Assembly (NCBI RefSeq): GCF_026278345.1
Contig: NZ_CP111085.1
Span: 3,985,501-4,049,500, forward strand
Direction of reading: 5' to 3'
Source of the DNA: Tellurirhabdus rosea
GTDB lineage: Bacteria > Bacteroidota > Bacteroidia > Cytophagales > Spirosomataceae
DNA: 64,000 nt
Under the pieces are notes generated by a model. That model ran no database searches. It saw only the letters and a program-made list of their open reading frames with translations, and was not told where the DNA came from. Numbering within the stretch: position 1 is the stretch's first letter; each line of letters opens with the position of its first letter. Shown piece after piece: positions 8,152 through 63,999 of the stretch. The translations under genes were made by a program, and so were the position numbers.

Positions 8152-9315
8152 ATGAACACGCTTTCCCGTCGAAACTGGCTCCGTCACGGGGCCCTCCTGA
8201 CCGCCGGTCTGACCGCCGGCCTTCCCCGCTGGAATCCGGCCGCCGCCAACGCCCGCCGCGAACAGGCTCTTTTTGAGGAGTTTGCCCGCCTCGGCCTTCA
8301 GCCGCCTGCCCTCAAAGCCCGGATTGCCTTTAACGAAAATCCGTACGGTCTTTCGCCGAAAGCCAAAGAAGCCCTGCTGGCCGCCGCCGACGCAGGAAAC
8401 CGCTACGCGATGATGGAAACCGGACAGCTCAAACAGCTTATTGCCGAACGGGAAGGAGTAAAACCGCAGAACGTGCTGCTCTCGCCGGGTTCCTCCGAAC
8501 TGCTGGCGGCTACGGCCGTTTACTACACGGGCAGCGCGGCCAAGGGCGCGGGCGGAAAGATTCTGACCAGCCAGTTTACCTACGACGATCTGCTGGAATG
8601 CGTTCGGGCCTTCGGGGCGCAGGTGGAGGCGCTGCCGCTGAAAAACTTTGGCTTCGACCTGGCGGCGATGCGCGGCAAACTAACGCCCGACACCAAACTC
8701 GTTTACATCTGCAATCCCAACAATCCCACCGGCACCGTGCTGCCTCCGGACGAACTGACGGCCTTCTGCCGCGAAGTGGCCCCCAAAGCGCCGGTCTTCG
8801 TCGACGAGGCGTATATCGATTTTCTGGAGCCGAAAGACCGTCCGCAACTGCCGAAACTCATCAACGAAGGCCTGAACGTGATGGTCGCCCGGACGTTCTC
8901 CAAGATTCACGGCTTCGCAGGACTGCGGCTGGGCTACGCCATCGGACCGGCCAAACTGGTCGAGGACTTCAAGCGGTACAGCCGTTCGGAATGGGATGTG
9001 TCCGTGACAACGATCATGGCCGGCATCGCCAGCCTACAGGACGAAAAATGGCAGATGTACTGCCGCGCCGAGAACACCAAAGGCCGCGAGACGCTTTACA
9101 AAACGCTGAAAGCCTTGGATTACGAGTACGTGCCCTCCGGGGCCAACTTCGTGCTGTTCCCCATTCGCATGAAGCCCAAATCCTTCGAAACCGCCATGTT
9201 CCGGGAAGGCATTATGGTGTCCACGCGCGAACACGACCGCCAGCCCTTCTGCCGCGTCAGCATCGGCAACGAAGCCGAAATGACCGCCTTCGCCAAAGCC
9301 CTTAAGGAATTATAA
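8152..9315 (+). CDS. HisC-like class I/II aminotransferase with Tat signal
   Basis: Seen: 387 residues. The N-terminus SRRNWLRHG followed by an Ala/Leu/Gly-rich stretch is a twin-arginine signal. The rest is a fold-type I PLP enzyme of the histidinol-phosphate aminotransferase group: NENPYG near residue 62, CNPNNPTGT, FVDEAYIDF, and TFSKIHGFAGLRLGY with PLP-binding Lys251. Family knowledge: HisC transfers an amino group from glutamate to imidazole-acetol phosphate in the cytosol. A Tat-exported version cannot be serving histidine synthesis there, so a periplasmic role with another substrate is inferred. There are no his genes nearby. Confidence 0.88.
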   Translation: MNTLSRRNWLRHGALLTAGLTAGLPRWNPAAANARREQALFEEFARLGLQPPALKARIAFNENPYGLSPKAKEALLAAADAGNRYAMMETGQLKQLIAEREGVKPQNVLLSPGSSELLAATAVYYTGSAAKGAGGKILTSQFTYDDLLECVRAFGAQVEALPLKNFGFDLAAMRGKLTPDTKLVYICNPNNPTGTVLPPDELTAFCREVAPKAPVFVDEAYIDFLEPKDRPQLPKLINEGLNVMVARTFSKIHGFAGLRLGYAIGPAKLVEDFKRYSRSEWDVSVTTIMAGIASLQDEKWQMYCRAENTKGRETLYKTLKALDYEYVPSGANFVLFPIRMKPKSFETAMFREGIMVSTREHDRQPFCRVSIGNEAEMTAFAKALKEL

Positions 9316-9320
9316 ATTAG

Positions 9321-9433
9321 GAGTTAAGAGTTAAGAGTTAAGAGTTAAGAGTTAAAAGTTAAAAGTTGCTCCGCTTAGCCAGATTTCTGAATCAGCAGAG
9401 CAACTTTTAACTCTTAACTTTTAACTCTTAACT
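9321..9433. repeat. Short-word inverted repeat (hairpin H2)
   Basis: Left arm 9321-9371 is four GAGTTAA heptamers then AAGTTAA-like copies; right arm 9398-9433 is the complement. Apex GCTCCGCTTAGC. It fills the gap between the convergent aminotransferase and SDR genes. Confidence 0.9.
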
Positions 9434-9435
9434 TT

Positions 9436-10203
9436 TTAAAGTCCAAGAGCCAGGAAGCCTCCGTCTACGGCGAGCGTTTGTCCGGTGATGTAGCCGGCGG
9501 CGGGGAGGCAGAGGAAGGCGGCGGCGGCGGCGACTTCGGCGGGCTCGCCCACGCGGCCCATCGGCGTGCGCTCCAGAATTTTCTGAAGCCGTTCGGGGTT
9601 GGTCAGGACGGGTTCGGCCAGCGGCGTCCGGATGTACCAGGGCGCTACGGCGTTGACCCGAACGCTGTCCGGCGCCCATTCGACGGCGAGGTATCGCACC
9701 AGCTGGTCGAGGGCGGCTTTGGTGAGGCCATAGGGCGAGCCGCTGCCCACGTGCCGGAACCCGGCCACCGACGTGATGAACACCACGCTGGCCTGTCCGG
9801 AAGCCTTCAGCAGCGGGTAGGCGGCCTGCGTGAGGTCGAAGGCGGAGCGGAGGTTGGTGTTCAGGATGTGGTCCAGCTCGCCGGGCGTGTAATCGGCAGT
9901 CGGCTTGCGGATGTTGGTGCCGACGTTATTGACCAGAATATCCAGTCCGCCCCAAACGGTTTTAACCGTTTCCAGCAGGCCCACAGCCACACCCGGCTGG
10001 CTCACGTCGGCGGCCAGACCCTCAACCACAAAGCCCTGTTGCCGGTATTCTTCCACTTGTTTTGCTAAAAGCACAGCGTCGCGGGCGACAAGGAACACGC
10101 TTGCGCCCAGTTCAAACAACTGCCTGACGATTGCCTCGCCAATGCCTTTGGTGCCGCCCGTGACGAGCGCACGGCGGCCGTTTAGTTGCCAGGATGGATT
10201 CAT
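9436..10203 (-). CDS. SDR family oxidoreductase (tropinone-reductase-like)
   Basis: Seen: 255 residues. The Rossmann motif TGGTKGIG is near residue 15 and NNVGTN near residue 90. A catalytic Ser lies in VVFITSVAG, and Tyr-x3-Lys is in SPYGLTKAA, with the C-terminal GQTLAVDGG loop. All classical SDR residues are present. [11 protein letters not shown] is typical of the plant tropinone-reductase-like branch, which is broad in substrates. Probably a cytosolic NAD(P)H-dependent ketone/alcohol oxidoreductase of unknown substrate. The gene is flanked on both sides by short-word hairpins (9321-9433 and 10211-10302), the closest 2 bp from the stop codon. Confidence 0.88.
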
Positions 10204-10210
10204 GAAAATC

Positions 10211-10302
10211 GTTTATGGTTTAAGGTTTAGCGTTTAAAATTGCTCCGCCTCAATGAGAAGTCGGTAAAGAAGCGGAGCAACCTTAAACGCTAAACAATAA
10301 AC
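10211..10302. repeat. Short-word inverted repeat (hairpin H3)
   Basis: Left arm 10211-10248 is GTTTAAG/GTTTAGC-like heptamers ending TTGCTCCGC; right arm 10272-10302 starts GCGGAGCAA and mirrors it. It lies upstream of the SDR start codon. Confidence 0.9.
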
Positions 10303-10350
10303 TCTGAACATTTGCGGGCAAACTTACGAAGAGCCGCCCGTAGAATTGCT

Positions 10351-30280: not shown

Positions 30281-31306
30281 ATGCAGCCCGTACCCATCCG
30301 CACCACCGTCGTCGGCAGCTACCCGTTTCCCGGCTGGCTGGAATTTGCCACGCAGAATCTGGACAAATTCGGCCCGGCCGATATTGAGGAAATGGTGGAA
30401 GACGCCGTGGTGGCGGCCATTCACGACCAGACCACCGCGGGCCTTGATGTCATTACGGACGGCGAACAGACCCGGCTGGATTTCAACCTGTCGTTCTATG
30501 GCTACCTCAAAGGCATCGAACCCAACCACGCCGAGACCCGCAAGTTCGGCCCGGCGGCCCACGACCAGCGCGGCAAGCATTCCATCGTGGCCGAACTGAC
30601 CGCCCCGGCCGGACTGGGAGCCGTGAAGGAATTTCAGCGGCTGCAAAAACTGGCCCCGTCCGGCCCGACGCTGAAAGCTTCCGTGCCCGGTCCTTACACA
30701 CTCAGCGGCCGGATGTTGCCGAATGCTCACTACAAGGACCGTTACGAAATTACCGAAGCCCTGCTTCCCATCGTCCGGAAGGAACTGGAAGACCTGGTGG
30801 CGGCGGGCTGCACGGAGATCACCGTGGACGAACCGTCGATGTCGTGCTATGCCTACAAGGAGGATACCCGGCGGTTTGTGAATATTTTCAACCGGACGGT
30901 CGCGCCGGTGGTGGGCAAATGCCGCCTGTCGACGCACCTGTGTTTCGGCAATTTCAAAGGCCGCCCGGTAGGATTTCGCAAAATTCATCCAATGCTGCCC
31001 GATTTTCTGGACCTGTCCGTAGACGAAGTGCACGTGGAAATGGCGAACCGGGAATTCGACGAAGTGGAACTGCTTGCCGAATTTGCGCAGAAGATGGACG
31101 TGGCCGTGGGCATTGTGGATGTCAAAAACTATTACATCGAAACCGTGCAGGACGTGGTCGAGCGCATCCGCAAGTGCCTGAAATACGTCCCCGCCGATAA
31201 ACTGGCCGTTGCGCCGGACTGCGGCCTGAGCCAGACCGCCCGCTGGGCCGCCAGGCAGAAACTGGTCAACCTGGTGGCAGGAGCGAGGGAGGTGAGAAAG
31301 GGGTAA
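30281..31306 (+). CDS. Cobalamin-independent methionine-synthase-like (MetE C-terminal domain) protein
   Basis: Seen: 341 residues from the ATG at 30281; an in-frame upstream ATG would overlap the SIS gene and read through the repeat arm. This is the C-terminal MetE barrel only. RTTVVGSYPFP is at the N-terminus, DGEQTR near 69, and DEPSMSCY near 184. The zinc ligands His219, Cys221, Glu253 and Cys314 are present; the 61-residue Glu-Cys spacing equals that of full MetE (665 to 726), and the spacing before the Glu differs. Short MetE-like proteins often do methyl transfer to or from other thiols. Its place after SDR, ROK and SIS genes is unusual; a demethylation step on a methylated substrate is possible but speculative. 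Confidence 0.85.
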   Translation: MQPVPIRTTVVGSYPFPGWLEFATQNLDKFGPADIEEMVEDAVVAAIHDQTTAGLDVITDGEQTRLDFNLSFYGYLKGIEPNHAETRKFGPAAHDQRGKHSIVAELTAPAGLGAVKEFQRLQKLAPSGPTLKASVPGPYTLSGRMLPNAHYKDRYEITEALLPIVRKELEDLVAAGCTEITVDEPSMSCYAYKEDTRRFVNIFNRTVAPVVGKCRLSTHLCFGNFKGRPVGFRKIHPMLPDFLDLSVDEVHVEMANREFDEVELLAEFAQKMDVAVGIVDVKNYYIETVQDVVERIRKCLKYVPADKLAVAPDCGLSQTARWAARQKLVNLVAGAREVRKG

Positions 31307-31396
31307 ATGATTGATTGACTGAATGACTGGCTTCGCAATGCTAAGGTCAGCGAAGCCAACCAATCAGGCATTCAGTCATTCAGTCACTCAATCATT
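31306..31396. repeat. Short-word inverted repeat (hairpin H4)
   Basis: Left arm 31306-31336 is TGATTGACTGAA-type 4/8-nt words ending GGCTTCGC; right arm 31350-31396 begins GCGAAGCC and mirrors it. It starts at the stop codon of the MetE-like gene. Confidence 0.9.
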
Positions 31397-33701: not shown

Positions 33702-34952
33702 ATGCCTTCTCCTGCCCGCTATAAGTCTGTTATCTACAAAGCCACCAGTAGCCTGCTTTTCATTCTTCATTGTTCCTTATTCATCCAAACGTCTCTCGCC
33801 CAGAAGCCGAATTTTAAAGTTCAGGTCGTTGATAACCAGATCAGCATCGGCTACGGACTGGCGATTGGCGATGTGGACGGGGATAAAAAGCCGGATATTC
33901 TGCTGGCCGACCAGAAGGAGTTTGTCTGGTATAAAAACCCCGGCAACCGCACCGGCACCTGGAAACGGCACGTCATGGCCCGCAATCTGACGCCGCAGGA
34001 TAACGTTTGCATTGCCGCCCGCGACCTCGACGGCGACGGCCGGGTAGAGGTGGCCGTCGGCGCGGGCTGGAATCCGGCCGAAACGGGCGATTCAACCAAA
34101 TCCGGGGCCGTATTCTACCTCCTGCGCCCGAAAGATGCCACGCAGCTCTGGGAACCCGTCCGCCTGCCCGCCGAAGTAACGACCCACCGGATGCGCTGGG
34201 CCAAGGTGGGCGGCAATCAGTACCAGTTGATCGTGGTACCGCTGCACGGCTTTGGCAACAAAAACGGCGAAGGCCGGGGTGTACGGGTGTACGGCTACGA
34301 GTTTCCAAAAAATCCGCGCGGTGGCTGGAAACGCCATCTGGTCGACTCCACGCTGCACATGACGCACAACTTCGAAATCTGGGAGGAAGGGTCGTTTACG
34401 GGCGTGATTGTGGCCGGGAAAGAGGGCGGAAAAATTCTCGAATGGAAAAACAACCGCTGGCAGTACCAGCCCGAAGAGGCCGCCCGGCTCGCGCTGGACA
34501 TGCTGACGCCCAACGGCAGCGGAATCGGCGAAATCCGGCGGTTCAACAACGGCAGCGGGATTGCCACCATCCAGCCCATGCACGGCGATATCCTGCAAAT
34601 TGAAACGGGCTATTACTCCGTCAAAACGCCCCGCGCCGACGTTTCCGAAAAGGAAATCAGCGTTCTGAGCGACGAACTAAGCCAGGGCCATGCCTTGGTG
34701 ACGGGCGATTTTCTGAAAATGGGCACCGACCAGATCGTAGCGGGCTGGCGCAATCCGAATAAGAAAAAAGAAGTCGGCATCCGGATGTTTGTGCCGCAGA
34801 AAGATGGTCCCTGGCAGGAATACCCCGTCGATGACAGCGTCCGGATGGCCTGCGAAGACCTCCAGGCCGCTGACCTCGACGGCGACGGCAAACTCGACCT
34901 GATCGCCTCGGGGCGGGCGACGTTGAACGTGCTTGTTTATTGGAATGATTGA
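33702..34952 (+). CDS. Exported FG-GAP/VCBS repeat propeller protein
   Basis: Seen: 416 residues from the ATG at 33702. The signal peptide (core about residues 13-30, ending LAQ) is encoded by DNA that resembles the short-word repeats (see findings). The body is a propeller with calcium-loop repeats of FG-GAP/VCBS type: GDVDGDKKPDILLA, ARDLDGDGRVEVAVGAGWN, and AADLDGDGKLDLIASG. Family knowledge: such proteins are secreted or periplasmic and bind calcium and often glycans or proteins. Catalytic residues are not evident. The stop codon lies inside hairpin H5. Confidence 0.85.
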   Translation: MPSPARYKSVIYKATSSLLFILHCSLFIQTSLAQKPNFKVQVVDNQISIGYGLAIGDVDGDKKPDILLADQKEFVWYKNPGNRTGTWKRHVMARNLTPQDNVCIAARDLDGDGRVEVAVGAGWNPAETGDSTKSGAVFYLLRPKDATQLWEPVRLPAEVTTHRMRWAKVGGNQYQLIVVPLHGFGNKNGEGRGVRVYGYEFPKNPRGGWKRHLVDSTLHMTHNFEIWEEGSFTGVIVAGKEGGKILEWKNNRWQYQPEEAARLALDMLTPNGSGIGEIRRFNNGSGIATIQPMHGDILQIETGYYSVKTPRADVSEKEISVLSDELSQGHALVTGDFLKMGTDQIVAGWRNPNKKKEVGIRMFVPQKDGPWQEYPVDDSVRMACEDLQAADLDGDGKLDLIASGRATLNVLVYWND

Positions 34953-35033
34953 ATTTTGAGTGTTGAATGATTGATTTGCTTCACAAATTCTAACTCAGCG
35001 GAGCAAATCAATCATTCAACATTCAAAATTCAA
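34949..35033. repeat. Short-word inverted repeat (hairpin H5)
   Basis: Arms 34949-34980 and 35002-35033 are 32 nt each with a single mismatch, around a 21-nt loop. The right side of the apex has GCGGAGC. It runs from one stop codon to the other of two convergent genes. Confidence 0.95.
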
Positions 35034-36008
35034 TCAATCTACTGTGCAATCCGTCGGCAGCCGGTACCGGGTTCCGTACTGGTTAATCCAGGCCAGGAGG
35101 CGCTCGACGTCCTGGGGCTGGAAGAGTTCGGTGCCGGGATTCATGGTGGCTGCGCTGCCGCAGGCGACACCCTGCCGAATCATCTGGCGGTAATCCCTGC
35201 CCTGCGACAGGGCCCAGGTCATGCCCGCAACCATGCTGTCGCCCGCGCCGACGGTGCTTAGCTTTTTGACCGATGGGGCCGGGACGTGTTCGCAGAAATC
35301 CCGCGTGACGAGCATGGCGCCCTGCGGGCCCATCGAGACCACGACCACTTCGCAGTCGCCGCGTCCGATGATTTCCCGGGCTGCATCGTCGATGTCCACC
35401 GTTTCCAGCGTTTCCACCCCGACCAGGGCGCATAGTTCATTCAGATTGGGTTTCAGCAGGAAAACGCCGACGTTGGCGGCTTCAAACAGCGGCTGGCCCG
35501 AAGTATCGAGGATGAAACGGGCACCGGCGTTCTGCACCGCCCGGGCAATCCGGGCGTAAAAATCTGTGGACACCCCGTTGGGCAGGCTTCCGCTCGCGAC
35601 CACATAAGCCGGTTTGAAGTCAAGGGACGACAGGGAGTCCAGCCAGCTTTGGGCTTCCGAAGCCGAGAGCGTCGGGCCGGGGAGGTTGAAGCGGTACTGC
35701 GCGTTCGACTCGGTTTCGGTGACGGTAAAATTCTCCCGGGTCCATTCCTGCGTTTCGATGATCCGGTACGAAATACCCGCCTTCCGCACCAGATCCTGCA
35801 AAAGCTGTCCCGGCGGCCCTCCCGCCGAAAACAGGGCCAGCGAATCGCCGCCGAGTCGTCTCAAGGCTTTCGAAACATTGAGTCCGCCGCCGCCTGCGTC
35901 GTAGCGGGGCGGTGCGCAGCGTAATTTTTGTTCAGGAACAAACCGGTCGACGGTCGTACTTTTATCGATAGCCGGATTGAGGGTGATGGTCAGAACGTCG
36001 AAATTCAT
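35034..36008 (-). CDS. PfkB-family (1-phosphofructokinase-type) hexose kinase
   Basis: Seen: 324 residues. ITLNPAIDKST is the N-terminal motif of the FruK/PfkB/LacC branch. GGGGLNVSKALRRLGG is signature 1, VVASGSLPNG the mid motif, and LKPNLNEL and STVGAGDSMVAGMT are the C-terminal anion-hole motif with catalytic Asp (about residue 253). Family knowledge: phosphorylation of fructose 1-phosphate, fructose 6-phosphate or tagatose 6-phosphate. No PTS genes are present here, so a minor phosphofructokinase (PfkB-like) is more likely than FruK. It is flanked by hairpins H5 and H6, and the last codons touch H5. Confidence 0.88.
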   Translation of the reverse strand: MNFDVLTITLNPAIDKSTTVDRFVPEQKLRCAPPRYDAGGGGLNVSKALRRLGGDSLALFSAGGPPGQLLQDLVRKAGISYRIIETQEWTRENFTVTETESNAQYRFNLPGPTLSASEAQSWLDSLSSLDFKPAYVVASGSLPNGVSTDFYARIARAVQNAGARFILDTSGQPLFEAANVGVFLLKPNLNELCALVGVETLETVDIDDAAREIIGRGDCEVVVVSMGPQGAMLVTRDFCEHVPAPSVKKLSTVGAGDSMVAGMTWALSQGRDYRQMIRQGVACGSAATMNPGTELFQPQDVERLLAWINQYGTRYRLPTDCTVD

Positions 36009-36010
36009 TC

Positions 36011-36098
36011 AGTTATGAAGTAGCAGTTAAGAGTTATGAGTTTACTACCGGAGCCGCGAAGCTAATTTATAACTCATAATTCTTAACTCTTAACTCAA
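36011..36098. repeat. Short-word inverted repeat (hairpin H6)
   Basis: Left arm 36011-36044 uses AGTTATG/AGTTAAG heptamers; right arm 36063-36098 is the imperfect complement. Apex GGAGCCGCGAAGC. Lies between the PfkB kinase start and the stop of the first paralog. Confidence 0.85.
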
Positions 36099-36099
36099 T

Positions 36100-36459
36100 T
36101 TATTCCGCCGTAGAAATCTGTCCGCTCACGTTGCGCAGGGCCGTAGCGAGGCTCTGGAGCTGGGTGGTGATTTCGCCTTCCGAGCCGGTGTCGGCGCTGA
36201 ATTCGGCCACGCTGGTCGCCAGCTTTTCGAGAATGTCGTGAATATTTTCCGACTGCGGCGTGGGATTGTCGAGGGCCTGCCGGAGCTGCTCCAGCTGGTC
36301 GGCCATCGCCGTTACGCGCGTGTTTTCACCCTGCCGCAGCGACTGAATCCACTGATCGATGAGGCTGGTGCCTTCCATCGCCGACACCGAAACGCTCCCG
36401 TTGCTCAGGTTGGCGATGGTTTTGTCTAATAAACTGGTTGTTTCTGAATGGCTTTCCAT
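36100..36459 (-). CDS. Tandem-paralog family protein, copy A
   Basis: Seen: 119 residues, no signal peptide or membrane segment, helical and Gln/Ser-rich. It shares with five neighbours an N-terminal LLDKTIANLSNG-type helix, the block EGTSLIDQWIQSLRQG, a helix with LEQLRQALDN, and a C-terminal LQSLATALRNVSGQI helix. The family was not recognised. This is the most downstream member of the array when read on the minus strand. The common pattern is two or three amphipathic helices after a conserved (E/D)Gxx(L/M)(I/V)xxW box. Likely a small cytosolic helical-bundle protein that might pair with its paralogs; function unknown. Confidence 0.72.
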   Translation of the reverse strand: MESHSETTSLLDKTIANLSNGSVSVSAMEGTSLIDQWIQSLRQGENTRVTAMADQLEQLRQALDNPTPQSENIHDILEKLATSVAEFSADTGSEGEITTQLQSLATALRNVSGQISTAE

Positions 36460-36463
36460 GAGT

Positions 36464-36562
36464 TGAATGATTGAATGATTGAATGACTGAATGACTGAAT
36501 GACTGAATGACTGGCAGGCAAAAGATCACTACAGTCATTCGGTCATTCAGTCAATCAGTCAT
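36464..36562. repeat. Short-word inverted repeat (hairpin H7)
   Basis: Left arm 36464-36513 is at least six TGAATGAT/TGAATGAC 8-mers; right arm 36532-36562 is the complement. It begins 4 bp upstream of the start codon of copy A and ends at the stop of copy B. Confidence 0.92.
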
Positions 36563-36564
36563 TT

Positions 36565-36900
36565 TTACAATGAAATCGCAAAAACATGCACCGCTTCGGC
36601 CAGCGGGCGGAGCTGGTCCCGGATGTCGGGCTGGGAATTCTGGGCAACAACGCTGAGCTGGTCCGACATGTCGAGCATGATGGTCCGGACCGTAACGGCG
36701 TCGGGGTTGCCGCTTTCGAGCTGGCTGCGCAGTTCCTGAAGCGAAATCCGCAGCTGCTGCGACTGCGGGGCCTCCGCCAGAACGTCGATCCAGTAGTCGA
36801 TCAACAGCGGCCCGTCCGTCGGAACGATGCTGGTCACCCCGCCGTCGTTCAGCGCCGAAACCGTGTTGTTGATCAGGTCTTGTGTGGGATTGGAGTCCAT
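36565..36900 (-). CDS. Tandem-paralog family protein, copy B
   Basis: Seen: 111 residues. INNTVSALNDGG aligns with the first helix of the array family; TDGPLLIDYWIDVLAEA is the central box with the invariant Trp; LQELRSQLESGNPDAVTVRTIM and LRPLAEAVHVFAISL are the third and last helices. No signal, membrane helix or Cys. It differs from copy A at most positions but keeps the order of motifs, so the copies are old. Read in the same direction as the other five; hairpins lie on both sides (H7, H8). Function unknown. Confidence 0.72.
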   Translation of the reverse strand: MDSNPTQDLINNTVSALNDGGVTSIVPTDGPLLIDYWIDVLAEAPQSQQLRISLQELRSQLESGNPDAVTVRTIMLDMSDQLSVVAQNSQPDIRDQLRPLAEAVHVFAISL

Positions 36901-36906
36901 AAATGA

Positions 36907-36993
36907 CGTTGAAGGTTGAAGATTGAAGGTTGAACGTGAACGAGTGGGAAGCGCCTTTTGCCGCCTTCAACGTTCAACGTTCAACCTTCAACG
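36907..36993. repeat. Short-word inverted repeat (hairpin H8)
   Basis: Left arm 36907-36942 is GTTGAAG heptamers; right arm 36964-36993 is the complement (CTTCAAC/GTTCAAC words). Separates copies B and C. Confidence 0.9.
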
Positions 36994-36995
36994 CA

Positions 36996-37334
36996 TTATA
37001 GCTGATCGCTGAACGTCCGGAGGGCCAGGGCCAGCTCGTCGAGTTCGTTGGTATAACCGCCGCCGAGCGACTGCGAAAGCGAACCGGTCTGGTCGGCAAG
37101 GTTGGCCAGCAGGTATTTGAGCTGATCCGACGGCGGATTCGGCATTTGCAGCAGCGACCGCAGTTGCATCAGGTTATTGGTGACGGAACTGGCCTGGTGC
37201 GAGTCCTGGAGGACCTTCAGCCAGTCGTCGATCAGGTTGACGCCCTCGCGGGGAGCCATATTGTCTACATCAGCAGTTTGCAGCGTATTGAGCGTTCCGT
37301 TGAGCGCATTACGGGTTAACGAATTCGATGGCAT
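36996..37334 (-). CDS. Tandem-paralog family protein, copy C
   Basis: Seen: 112 residues. LNGTLNTLQTAD, then REGVNLIDDWLKVLQDS, then LMQLRSLLQMPNPPSDQLKYLL, then ADQTGSLSQSLGGGY and LDELALALRTFSDQL. This copy has the clearest form of the family pattern: (E/D)G-x2-LID-x-WL-x2-L, then L-x2-LR-x2-L and LA-x-LR-x-F at the end. Small, acidic, soluble. Its ends touch H8 and H9 within a few bases. No known family was recognised. Confidence 0.73.
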   Translation of the reverse strand: MPSNSLTRNALNGTLNTLQTADVDNMAPREGVNLIDDWLKVLQDSHQASSVTNNLMQLRSLLQMPNPPSDQLKYLLANLADQTGSLSQSLGGGYTNELDELALALRTFSDQL

Positions 37335-37342
37335 AAGTCAAA

Positions 37343-37436
37343 ATTGAGTTATGAGTTAAGAGTTATGAGTTAAAAATTAGAAGTTATCGATGGCTCTTTT
37401 CAACAACTCATAACTCTTAACTCATAATTCATAACT
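37343..37436. repeat. Short-word inverted repeat (hairpin H9)
   Basis: Left arm 37343-37380 alternates GAGTTAT and GAGTTAA; right arm 37404-37436 is the complement. Separates copies C and D. Confidence 0.9.
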
Positions 37437-37440
37437 GATT

Positions 37441-37797
37441 TTAGGCGATTTGATTGGCAAAATTGCGCAGGGATTCGGCCAGCGTTTTGAGCCGGGCCGG
37501 AAACTCACCGCCGGCTTCGGGCAGCCAGTGCTCGGTCTGCTGCGACAGGGCCAGCAGAATTTCCCGGAGCTTGCGGTTGTCCAGAAGCGGGTTCTGGAGT
37601 TCATCCCGGAGTTCCTGCAGTTTGTTGGCAATGTTTTCGGCTTCCGACGTTTTGAGGGACCGAAGCCAGTCGTTTATTAGGGAAAGCCCTTCAGGAATAG
37701 ACGTATCGAACGGACCGCCGTCGAAAGCCTGTACGGTTGAGTCAATCAGGGTCGTCGCCGTTGAATGCGGCACCTGTGAATGCGAATGGTTGGACAT
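37441..37797 (-). CDS. Tandem-paralog family protein, copy D
   Basis: Seen: 118 residues from the ATG at 37797. An in-frame upstream start (37914) would translate hairpin H10 and is rejected. LIDSTVQAFDGG, PEGLSLINDWLRSLKTS, LQELRDELQNPLLDNRKLREIL and LKTLAESLRNFANQIA match the family. The N-terminal 15 residues have four His-containing turns (NHSHSQVPHS), not seen in the other copies. LIDSTVQAFDGG is nearly the same as LIDSTVEAFNGE of copy E, so D and E are the most alike at this end. Function unknown. Confidence 0.72.
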   Translation of the reverse strand: MSNHSHSQVPHSTATTLIDSTVQAFDGGPFDTSIPEGLSLINDWLRSLKTSEAENIANKLQELRDELQNPLLDNRKLREILLALSQQTEHWLPEAGGEFPARLKTLAESLRNFANQIA

Positions 37798-37800
37798 AGT

Positions 37801-37930
37801 CGGTTTTCTGTTTTGTGGTTTTCGGTTTTCAGTTGGTGCCTCCCGTTTTGGTTCTTCTCCCGGACTGTAACCCTGCCGGGCCGCGTCAGGGAACGCGAAA
37901 CAGAAAACGGACAACCGAAAACAGACAACT
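37801..37930. repeat. Short-word inverted repeat (hairpin H10)
   Basis: Left arm 37801-37835 is GGTTTTC/TGTTTTG words; right arm 37894-37930 is ACCGAAAAC-like complement. A GC-rich inner part lies between. Its right end meets the stop codon of copy E. Confidence 0.8.
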
Positions 37931-38535
37931 TATTGCTTGCTGCCTCCTTCGTGAACGGACGTTCCGGGTGTGCGGGGATCGGTGCCGGAGTTTTCGGAGC
38001 CTTCTTCCGTGTCGGAGCCGGTGCCGTAGCCCGAACCGTAGGAGCCGCCACCCTGATGCCCTTCCGTATCCTCATCGCCCGGACTGCCGTCCTGGCGGCC
38101 CATCTCCGGGGCGCCCGCGTTTCCGGTGGCGCTGCCCGTATGGGTTTGGGTAAATATCTGGGCCCGGCCTCCTTCAACCCGGCCGTTGCGGCCCGCCAGG
38201 GTATCGCCGAAGCCGCGCAGGGCCCCGGCCAGCTCGCGGAGCCGGGCGTTCACCTTGTCGTCCTCGGCTTTGCCGACGAAGCCTTCCGCCTGGTCCGCCA
38301 GCTCCGCGAGCAGGGCGTCGATCTGGGCCGTATCGGGGTTGCCCGCCTGAAGCTGTAACTTAAGGGCGCTGAGCGTGCTGGCGACCGGATTGGTGGACTC
38401 GTCGCCGCTGCGCAGGACCGTAACCCAGTTGTCGATCATCGAAATGCCGTCCATCGCCGAGACGGACGTAATTTCACCGTTAAAAGCCTCCACCGTAGAG
38501 TCGATGAGGCCCGTTTGTGTCTGTGTAGTTGCCAT
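37930..38535 (-). CDS. Tandem-paralog family protein, copy E, with long disordered tail
   Basis: Seen: 201 residues. The first 115 match the family: LIDSTVEAFNGE, DGISMIDNWVTVLRSG, LSALKLQLQAGNPDTAQIDALL, LRELAGALRGFGDTL. The last 85 residues are a Gly/Ser/Glu/Thr-rich low-complexity tail (GGGSYGSGYGTGSDTEEGSE) with no counterpart in the other copies. A tail of that kind may be flexible and could reach surfaces or partners. Gap to copy F is 77 bp and holds no hairpin, the only internal gap without one. Confidence 0.72.
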   Translation of the reverse strand: MATTQTQTGLIDSTVEAFNGEITSVSAMDGISMIDNWVTVLRSGDESTNPVASTLSALKLQLQAGNPDTAQIDALLAELADQAEGFVGKAEDDKVNARLRELAGALRGFGDTLAGRNGRVEGGRAQIFTQTHTGSATGNAGAPEMGRQDGSPGDEDTEGHQGGGSYGSGYGTGSDTEEGSENSGTDPRTPGTSVHEGGSKQ

Positions 38536-38612
38536 AACGTTGGTTGTAAATGCGGGGCATGCGGAATAACAGGAAAACGGGCCAAGTGGTCGGCCTCCCG
38601 TCGGTCAGTGCA

Positions 38613-38948
38613 TTACTTGGCCATTGCCCTGCTAAAGTCTTTCAGATTGGTGGCTAGATCGGCCAGATGTTGCCGGTAAGAACCCGTAGCGTTCTGGGCC
38701 ACTACTTCCGTCTGGTTGGCCAGATCCCGGAGCAGCAGCTGAACGGCTACCATATCACCGCCGTCGAGGGCATCCCGGAGCTGTTCGAGCGGAGCCACGA
38801 GCGTGGCCCATTCGGGCTGGGTCCGCAGAATGACGATCCAGTCTTCCACGAGGTTGACCCCTTCGTCGGGCGTTGTGCTGGGAGCACCGCCGCCAAGCGA
38901 GTCGTTGGTGTCTTCCAGCATCGTATCTATTTTCTCACGATGTGCCAT
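38613..38948 (-). CDS. Tandem-paralog family protein, copy F
   Basis: Seen: 111 residues. TMLEDTNDSLGGG, PDEGVNLVEDWIVILRTQ, LEQLRDALDGGDMVAVQLLL, LANQTEVVAQNATGSY and LADLATNLKDFSRAM fit the family pattern. NQT is shared with DQT and QQT in copies C and D. It is the first gene of the array in its reading direction, so the promoter for the group should lie upstream at 38949-39066, a short A/T-containing stretch shared with the divergent arfB. Function unknown. Confidence 0.72.
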   Translation of the reverse strand: MAHREKIDTMLEDTNDSLGGGAPSTTPDEGVNLVEDWIVILRTQPEWATLVAPLEQLRDALDGGDMVAVQLLLRDLANQTEVVAQNATGSYRQHLADLATNLKDFSRAMAK

Positions 38949-39066
38949 TTTGCGTATGTTTGTGGTCGTATGTCAGAGAACAGGTCCAGGCTTGGTTTGT
39001 TTATGGATTTAGTAGGTTACTGACAAAAAACTATCAAAAGTCCGCCCCTGCACAACGCCTGATTGT

Positions 39067-39468
39067 ATGGACCCAACCCGTCTGCTTCCGGAAGTACAGT
39101 ACCAGTTCGCCCGCAGCGGAGGCAAAGGCGGTCAGAACGTCAACAAGGTCGCTACCAAAGCCGAACTTTACTTCGATGTGGCCCGCTCGGCCCTGCTCAG
39201 TGAGGACGAAAAGGCGACCCTGCTCCAGAAACTGGCGGGCAAACTGACCACGGAAGGCGTGCTGGTGCTCTACCACCAGACCGAACGGAGCCAGCTTGCC
39301 AACCGCGAGAAAGTGACGGAGAAATTTCTGGACCTCGTGCGGAAGGCGTTCGTCCGGCCGCGTCCCCGAAAAGCGACCAAACCCGGCCGCGCCGCCCAGG
39401 AAGAACGCCGCAGTGAGAAAAAGCGCCGTTCGGATGTGAAAGAAGCCCGACGGCGTATCGACTATTAA
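39067..39468 (+). CDS. arfB: Alternative ribosome-rescue factor ArfB
   Basis: Seen: 133 residues. The release-factor signature SGGKGGQNVNKVATKAEL includes the catalytic GGQ (Gly21-Gly22-Gln23). A basic, Lys/Arg-rich C-terminal tail (from about residue 100, RPRPRKATKPGRAAQEERRS) fits the mRNA entry channel. Family knowledge: ArfB (YaeJ) enters stalled ribosomes that lack a stop codon and frees the peptide by hydrolysis. Length is normal for the family. It is divergent from the paralog array and stands alone; two short gaps separate it from neighbours. Confidence 0.93.
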   Translation: MDPTRLLPEVQYQFARSGGKGGQNVNKVATKAELYFDVARSALLSEDEKATLLQKLAGKLTTEGVLVLYHQTERSQLANREKVTEKFLDLVRKAFVRPRPRKATKPGRAAQEERRSEKKRRSDVKEARRRIDY

Positions 39469-50625: not shown

Positions 50626-50749
50626 ATTGAATGATAGGTAGACCGATGGGTTGAATGGTTGATAGGTTGAACGGTTGAATGATTGAATAAGCTCCGCAAA
50701 GTCCGTGTAGGGCTAAGCCTGATTAATCATTCAATCATTCAATCATTCA
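50626..50749. repeat. Short-word inverted repeat (hairpin H11)
   Basis: Long left arm of GGTTGAA/TGAATGAT-like words (50626-50690), apex GCTCCGC, shorter right arm 50725-50749 of AATCATTC units. The right arm covers the stop codon of the acidic protein gene. Confidence 0.85.
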
Positions 50750-51133: not shown

Positions 51134-51260
51134 AAGGTTGGGGGTTGAACGTTCAAAGTTTAACGTTTAACGCGGTTCGTCGCTGCGTGACACGGCCTCA
51201 TTGCTGACTTATCGAATGAGGCGGAGCAGCGGCAGCGTTCAACCTTAAACGTTCAACCTT
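51134..51260. repeat. Short-word inverted repeat (hairpin H12)
   Basis: Left arm 51134-51173 has GTTTAAC/GGTTGAA words; right arm 51235-51260 is the complement. The centre has GCGGAGC in GAATGAGGCGGAGCAGC. Lies between the two disordered genes. Confidence 0.8.
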
Positions 51261-51267
51261 CCACCGA

Positions 51268-51765: not shown

Positions 51766-51780
51766 ACGTTTTGTAAAAAC

Positions 51781-51881
51781 AGTTATGAGTTAGGAGTTAA
51801 GAGTTAGGAGTTAAGAGCGGTTCACCGCAACGGCTGGCTCATTACTCATAATTCATAACTCTTAACTCATAACTCATAACT
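51781..51881. repeat. Short-word inverted repeat (hairpin H13)
   Basis: Left arm 51781-51819 alternates GAGTTAG and GAGTTAA; right arm 51843-51881 is the complement. Apex has GCGGTTCACCGC. Lies 16 bp upstream of the acidic protein 2 start. Confidence 0.9.
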
Positions 51882-51905
51882 GTTCCAAAGGTTTGTCGGA
51901 CCCCT

Positions 51906-63886: not shown

Positions 63887-63999
63887 GGAGGTAGGAGGTG
63901 GTTAGGTATGAGGTAGGAGGTATAAGGTAGGAGGTATAAGGTGGGAGGTAGGAGAGGGCTTTCAGGTTATAACCTCATACCTATCACCTCATACCTCCC
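63887..63999. repeat. Short-word inverted repeat (hairpin H15), reaches window end
   Basis: Left arm 63887-63955 is repeated AGGTAGG/AGGTATA/AGGTGGG heptamers; right arm 63969-63999 is the complement. The arm probably continues beyond the window. Confidence 0.9.

Follow-up and report, generated by a model that had tools for sequence, protein, structure and literature searches.

In Alphaproteobacteria, promoters of the EcfG general stress regulon read GGAAC-N16-CGTT, and csbD is a direct target (PMC7083833). The promoter-like motif upstream of the gene array analyzed here has the same invariant AAC and GTT at equal spacing, and CsbD genes of related genomes carry it. However, the host family, Spirosomataceae, belongs to Bacteroidota, the upstream box is longer here (RAACAWTC), and the likeness is one of promoter motif and target genes. 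CsbD, YtxH, DUF2383, LysM-BON and DUF937 proteins, which are small soluble or membrane-proximal stress proteins, have this promoter-like motif in common with the array, and DUF2383 and CsbD genes adjoin an orphan copy and a fusion copy of the array family, respectively. In contrast with the array family, which in the sampled genomes is restricted to Cytophagales plus one outlier, they are widespread, and they have no sequence similarity to it. LEA-like or apolipoprotein-like stress proteins resemble the family in being acidic, hydrophilic and helix-rich, whereas they form extended amphipathic repeats and the model of copy F shows five helices packed into a compact globular bundle, Trp being invariant in the family and the tail of copy E its only disordered-like part. 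The CATASP domain (PF20271) is likewise small and helical, and 3 of 146 family members matched it weakly (best E 0.001); however, wherever the match of a copy was shown it did not reach the curated cut-off, and no CATRA or conflict-system genes were noticed around the array. Our targeted literature searches found no description of the family, nor of a general stress regulon in this soil/water bacterial group.

The array and its protein family

All six minus-strand ORFs (copies A-F) were re-located within 36100-38948 of the window, i.e., the whole 64-kb stretch of DNA analyzed, and their place, strand and lengths agreed with the earlier note, which had described six tandem copies of 111-201 residues (Table 1). 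The motif it had read from them, (E/D)G-x2-(L/M)(I/V)-x2-W-x3-L, occurs in every copy; the W, the G, T14 and several Leu residues do not vary. Identity between copies was indeed low (26-36% pairwise), and single-sequence phmmer comparisons gave E-values from 6e-15 to 2e-6 in all 30 cases (database size set to 5000). A profile built from one Larkinella-genus array alone returned exactly six matches, which were the window copies. Judged by sequence comparison, copies A-F are true paralogs, chance similarity being excluded by E <=2e-6 for each pair. Copy F showed 77% identity to locus L045 (86% inside the L044/L045 genus) and copy A 47-48% to its orthologs. The tail of copy E comprises approximately 87 Gly/Ser/acidic, disordered-looking residues and contains the block GGGSYGSGYGTGS, which occurs once genome-wide. 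The divergent ArfB-like gene is a syntenic marker and lies outside the array system.

Table 1. Positions in the window of the array genes and of the elements around them.
Feature	Positions	Strand	Description
Copy F	38613..38948	-	111 aa; first gene, highest conservation
Copy E	37930..38535	-	201 aa; helical core plus tail
Copy D	37441..37797	-	118 aa from ATG at 37797; alternative start TTG at 37914 gives 157 aa
Copy C	36996..37334	-	112 aa
Copy B	36565..36900	-	111 aa
Copy A	36100..36459	-	119 aa; last gene, lowest conservation
ArfB-like peptidyl-tRNA hydrolase	39067..39468	+	divergent neighbor; GGQ motif recognized by eye
Promoter-like motif	38979..39002	-	AAACAAACCAAGCCTGGACCTGTT; 30 nt upstream of F; AAC-N17-GTT, a geometry of ECF type
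Hairpin beyond A	36016..36097		judged incidental
Hairpin A/B	36464..36563		8-nt repeat units; judged incidental
Hairpin B/C	36907..36993		judged incidental
Hairpin C/D	37345..37439		motif type with 153 genome matches; judged incidental
Hairpin D/E	37818..37922		weak, 17-nt arms, 88%; judged incidental

The earlier note had recognized no known family, and the searches bear this out. For the six copies, the best Pfam and NCBIfam profile scores were far under the curated cut-offs; a Pfam scan of 146 family members gave scattered weak matches, with at most four members per Pfam family; and Pfam, NCBIfam, PADLOC, PHROGs and PDB profile or sequence searches yielded nothing beyond weak helical-bundle noise, the weak profile matches including apolipoproteins and designed helical bundles. 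The supposed helical nature was supported by a confident AlphaFold2 model of copy F, a five-helix bundle (pLDDT 88.8, pTM 0.80). When this model was compared with PDB by Foldseek, as the earlier note had proposed, no significant match appeared and no PDB sequence or fold explained the family: against a known-fold threshold of E <=0.001 or TM >=0.5 among the hits listed, the best E was 0.39 and the best listed TMq 0.47, and PDB and viral BFVD searches gave no match below E of about 0.3. Family proteins have a pI of 4.1-5.1 and contain neither Cys nor a transmembrane-like stretch, and the array products are best read as small, acidic, soluble and Cys-free predicted helix bundles. The array family is an undescribed group of small helical proteins, nearly confined to Cytophagales.

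The distribution of the family was analyzed in Bacteroidota genomes (host family, order and phylum sets). Of 151 genomes in the family set, 52 carried it, as did 44 of 242 in the order set and 7 of 396 in the phylum set, and its range in these sampled genomes is Cytophagales plus one outlying genome. Arrays contained 3-9 genes, and copy number varied from 1 to 9 across related genomes. Positional orthologs span several genera (Larkinella, Spirosoma and Fibrisoma), with mostly strongly supported tree nodes, and the usual site is adjacent to arfB; 14 of the 21 loci inspected had the same cluster of neighbor genes. Of the two descriptions suggested for the array, old or diversifying, the former holds, the array being an old, ordered gene set, and dN/dS values of 0.06-0.27 where measurable indicate purifying selection rather than diversification. 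A single long-tailed ortholog of copy E was found in 14 of the 16 multi-gene arrays fetched (window excluded). Arrays of relatives were tight or overlapping (intergenic spacing of -17 to 45 nt in L045), which implies co-transcription. Two neighboring array groups are joined in a natural two-domain fusion (L061 and L224), which hints at hetero-oligomers; its single-sequence model (pLDDT 60) was too poor for a domain interface. A LEA-like neighbor gene (apolipoprotein-like, E 6.5e-4) was close to some arrays.

The own genome contains seven family copies, six in the array and one orphan. The orphan sits between a histidine kinase gene of LytS type and DUF2383 genes, and a LytTR regulator lies farther out; neighborhoods of orphan copies vary from genome to genome.

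The hairpins previously noticed in four of the five internal gaps and beyond copy A are present, the one between D and E being weaker, and the E/F gap has none. Comparable long inverted repeats (7-8-nt units) occur in at least eight further places in the window, one hairpin motif has 153 matches genome-wide (0 for its reversed control), hairpins are absent from the array gaps of L043, L047, L049 and L052, and an RNA family search gave no match above cut-off. Therefore, we rejected them as a component of the system.

A promoter-like motif common to the array and stress genes

A new result of this analysis is a stress-type promoter-like motif that the array has in common with stress genes. The site upstream of copy F is the sole match to RAACAW[TA]-N14-GTT (equivalent to RAACAWW-N14-GTT) in the window. 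All 19 array or fusion loci had at least one same-strand site, a presence that is partly circular for array-first genes, since it was in these that the motif had originally been spotted by eye. Array regions contained 26 same-strand and 2 opposite-strand sites; outside them, 2 sites fell in the approximately 320 kb covered, the DUF2383 site being one. Independent sites are those at CsbD genes, inside arrays and at other genes only; Spirosoma and Fibrisoma loci have such an internal site before the D ortholog or the next gene. Genome-wide, the motif exceeded its reversed-pattern control in the own genome (19 vs 2), G107 (17 vs 8), G088 (8 vs 4), G113 (7 vs 2), G018 (7 vs 5) and G057 (4 vs 1), whereas G004 showed no excess (9 vs 10). 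Orphan copies in other families lacked it.

Outside arrays, the motif occurred at CsbD genes of related genomes: 8 of the 9 tested carried it in a fixed position, between -67 and -76 relative to the start of the domain, whereas shuffled sequences gave an expectation of 0.014. No CsbD match was found in the own genome, in which the motif lies upstream of a YtxH gene and of one DUF2383 gene that adjoins the orphan seventh copy. As classes, neither YtxH (1 of 30 high scoring) nor DUF2383 (1 of 4 genes in the own genome) was enriched. Single sites were located at LysM-BON and DUF937 genes in G088 and at a LysM-BON gene in G018, and in G038 the two-domain fusion gene carries the motif, with CsbD adjoining on the other strand. 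Two AAC...GTT boxes at constant spacing and the same promoter-like motif on canonical stress genes are the ECF/EcfG-type features found. Since this geometry is common to CsbD and to individual DUF2383, YtxH, LysM-BON and DUF937 genes, membership of the array in a general-stress regulon is well supported at the sequence level, and we infer that the array would be induced by stress under the control of an ECF-type sigma factor.

An apparent sigma-adjacent motif site was seen only once (G107, 4863284).

Alternative readings of the motif and the array

The motif might instead be the site of another regulator, with only a few shared genes linking the array to general stress. In its favor, -35 elements are usually shorter than the conserved AACAATC block, and no cognate sigma factor was found, none of the 30 sigma-r4 loci checked among 130 listed matches in three genomes having the motif that autoregulation would imply. 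However, two separate boxes with fixed spacing and a variable middle of 13-14 nt, an ATG typically 25-70 nt downstream, and AAC/GTT boxes that are those of ECF promoters (PMC7083833) make us regard this as rather unlikely. A role of the proteins themselves as regulators tuning the stress response (anti-sigma or anti-anti-sigma factors, kinase partners, decoys or adaptors) appears more improbable. Small soluble helical bundles inside a stress regulon would suit it, as would the kinase, DUF2383 and LytTR genes near the orphan copy, but those surroundings differ among genomes, many paralogs with a long disordered tail would be unusual for such factors, and neither sequence nor fold matched known anti-sigma or adaptor families.

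With regard to the products, a diversifying conflict array, corresponding to the toxin- or immunity-like sets suggested in the earlier note, is very improbable. Small tandem paralogs of low identity are what it would predict, copy F matched CATASP very weakly (E 0.007, under cut-off), and the immunity protein PisI appeared in the fold list (TM 0.45, rank 36, E 1.9). Orthology largely refutes it: the copies are positional orthologs under purifying selection at a conserved, syntenic chromosomal site, no toxin partner, effector or mobile location was found, PADLOC gave low-scoring partial matches for copy A only, and the promoter is of stress type. More plausible, although still doubtful, are position-specific subunits of a structural assembly such as a shell, granule coat or filament scaffold, stress expression being incidental. 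That most arrays have exactly one tailed member and that positional orthologs are stable argues for non-interchangeable subunits, and the fusion of neighboring groups is compatible with a heterodimer; on the other hand, the variable copy number is awkward for a fixed stoichiometry, no known assembly was matched by fold, and the fusion model is poor.

Proposed role in the stress response

We favor, with a probability of about 0.6, a co-transcribed stress operon with an ECF-type promoter whose products form a mixed protective assembly. A single promoter upstream of F would read all six genes and would be turned on by an ECF-type sigma factor under osmotic, desiccation or stationary-phase type stress. 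The paralogs, made together, could then join via their conserved helical cores into cytoplasmic mixed oligomers, to which copy E would contribute its disordered acidic Gly/Ser/Tyr tail, the assembly acting as a protective or scaffolding shield. Hetero-oligomers are possible, and both they and the protective role are inferences of ours. A broader proposal, which we advance only tentatively, is that Spirosomataceae may have an undescribed ECF general-stress regulon with a geometry convergent with EcfG, of which the array might be a major lineage-specific output forming a mixed particle or condensate with one tailed subunit. Our results give an uncharacterized protein family a testable function, and the motif may outline a general stress regulon; if the copies co-assemble, a stress protein complex built from so many paralogs would be of a new kind.

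Family membership and predicted fold of copies A-F

We recovered the six minus-strand ORFs of an earlier note, A-F, at exactly the coordinates it had given, in an operon-like layout. Their alignment (about 111 columns) had invariant Thr14, Gly30, Trp37 and several Leu residues, and pairwise identity was as low as proposed (26-36%). All single-sequence comparisons among them were significant (E 6e-15 to 2e-6), and a profile built from another genus's array alone retrieved exactly A-F out of all window ORFs. Judged by sequence, A-F are a genuine family and chance similarity is excluded, which upholds the proposed paralogy.

No Pfam or NCBIfam model matched A-F at its cut-off, and a scan of 146 family members gave nothing but scattered weak coiled-coil-like matches. 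PDB sequence matches were to designed bundles and apolipoproteins, which is a composition effect. The AlphaFold2 model of copy F (146 homologs; pLDDT 88.8, pTM 0.80) has five predicted helices (2-18, 27-41, 45-63, 66-86 and 90-110), consistent with the helical nature noticed before, and helix 2 carries the shared EG-x2-LI-x2-W-x3-L motif. A fold search with this model found no PDB match (best E 0.39) and no viral match (best E 0.28), in line with the earlier note, which named no known family. The proteins have acidic pI values (4.1-5.1), lack Cys and show no transmembrane-like stretch, and are thus probably cytosolic.

Features of the array and intergenic hairpins (window positions)
Feature	Position	Strand	Remark
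Promoter-like motif AAACAAACCAAGCCTGGACCTGTT	38979-39002		30 nt before F; sole match in 64-kb window
Copy F	38613-38948	minus	ORF, first in transcription order
Copy E	37930-38535	minus	ORF, second
Copy D	37441-37797	minus	ORF from ATG; TTG at 37914 possible start
Copy C	36996-37334	minus	ORF, fourth
Copy B	36565-36900	minus	ORF, fifth
Copy A	36100-36459	minus	ORF, last
Hairpin	9302-9436		arms of tandem 7-8-nt units
Hairpin	10211-10309		same
Hairpin	31306-31396		same
Hairpin	34943-35039		same
Hairpin	50660-50749		same
Hairpin	51136-51265		same
Hairpin	51778-51884		same
Hairpin	63904-63996		same

Distribution, age and hairpins

The gene family was present in 52 of 151 sampled genomes of the taxonomic family, 44 of 242 of the order and 7 of 396 of the phylum, six of these seven belonging to the same order. 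The remaining one, G585 (L109 6473-7045; L110 4981-6254), includes a tandem of three genes, possibly reflecting transfer or a deeper origin. Relatives of copy F from named organisms occurred in Larkinella, Spirosoma and Fibrisoma, and the arrays sought in relatives were found across genera, with up to 9 or 10 genes. The gene tree clustered by array position across genera; 14 of 21 loci shared an arfB-like divergent neighbour, and their opposite flank often carried genes for a metallo-hydrolase and an FG-GAP protein. In most arrays a long Gly/Ser-rich tail was found on one copy and no other, the ortholog of E; the tail block GGxYGSGYGTGS recurred in several genera and occurred once in the own genome. 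Ortholog dN/dS was 0.06-0.27 where dS, near saturation, was measurable, indicating purifying selection. Positional grouping, shared neighbours and dN/dS therefore favour the first of the two proposals, "old or diversifying", and speak against the second: the array is ancient and evolves under constraint.

The hairpins between the copies do exist, but their membership in the array system did not hold. Similar elements lie at many other intergenic sites in the window (example arm units AACTCAT/AACTCTT and TGAATGAC), one motif type had 153 genome matches (75 forward, 78 reverse) versus none in the control, and several relatives' arrays lacked a strong hairpin. Thus, on this sequence evidence, the hairpins are judged incidental.

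The own genome also has a seventh copy outside the array (L057 7996-9514; genome 903995-905514), tail-to-tail with two DUF2383 genes and flanked by histidine kinase and LytTR regulator genes; the stress-type motif is at the DUF2383 pair and absent from this copy. Two-domain fusions occur off the array site (L061 7133-7855; L224 4350-5075), both with the promoter-like motif; L061 joins array group 1 to group F, and L224, in G038, has CsbD as divergent neighbour. The fusion protein model was of poor quality. Natural fusion of two neighbouring groups hints that copies may pair.

A shared promoter-like motif

Reading the DNA 5' of array-first genes revealed a two-box motif with the core RAACAW[TA]-N14-GTT. 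The survey covered 20 loci: 19 with arrays, lone genes at the array site or fusions, plus one orphan locus. Each of the 19 array/fusion loci had one or more same-strand sites within the array or immediately 5' of it. In array regions, 26 sites lay on the same strand as the genes and 2 on the other strand, and about 320 kb elsewhere held 2 more; these counts are partly circular as support because the motif was read from array-first genes. A second site before an internal gene in Spirosoma/Fibrisoma arrays is independent of the derivation.

ECF sigma factors have a near-invariant AAC in the -35 box, and EcfG, the alphaproteobacterial general stress sigma factor, recognizes GGAAC-N16-CGTT, with csbD as a direct target (PMC7083833). 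Since its AAC-to-GTT spacing is identical, the array motif would by analogy work like a general stress promoter; EcfG-family membership is not claimed, because no cognate sigma factor was identified among 30 sigma-r4 loci checked for their own motif in three genomes.

Genes outside the array gave further independent support. Eight of nine CsbD genes, from nine genomes, had the core 67-76 nt before the domain (0.014 expected). Own-genome sites also preceded the DUF2383 gene adjoining the orphan copy, a YtxH gene (YtxH genes as a class were not enriched) and a secreted-protein gene, which has probable orthologs with a site of their own in two further genomes; G088 had one site each at LysM-BON and DUF937 genes, and G018 one at a LysM-BON gene. 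Genome-wide, some genomes had clearly more matches to the motif than to its reversed-pattern control (19 versus 2 in the own genome), some had slightly more, and G004 showed no excess (9 versus 10). In three genomes the motif also lay upstream of a gene for a conserved small membrane protein (HxEGPVAEAIEEQTAKLPSD; no Pfam family; L218 3592-3919, L219 4159-4458, L220 4469-4762, L233); this gene follows those of a two-component system and a peroxiredoxin. Other small hydrophilic proteins without a description (L225 2044-2238, L234, L250, L140, L242), some of them present in more than one genome, are also encoded behind the motif and are regulon candidates.

Proposed role

A toxin or immunity role, suggested earlier, was not supported. 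We consider that the array belongs to a stress regulon (probability about 0.8): osmotic, desiccation or stationary stress would cause A-F to be expressed together. More doubtful is what follows: the paralogs may associate via their helical cores, with copy E supplying a disordered acidic tail, and the assembly could be protective or scaffolding. The family is real, conserved and apparently undescribed, and its promoter provides a new functional handle.
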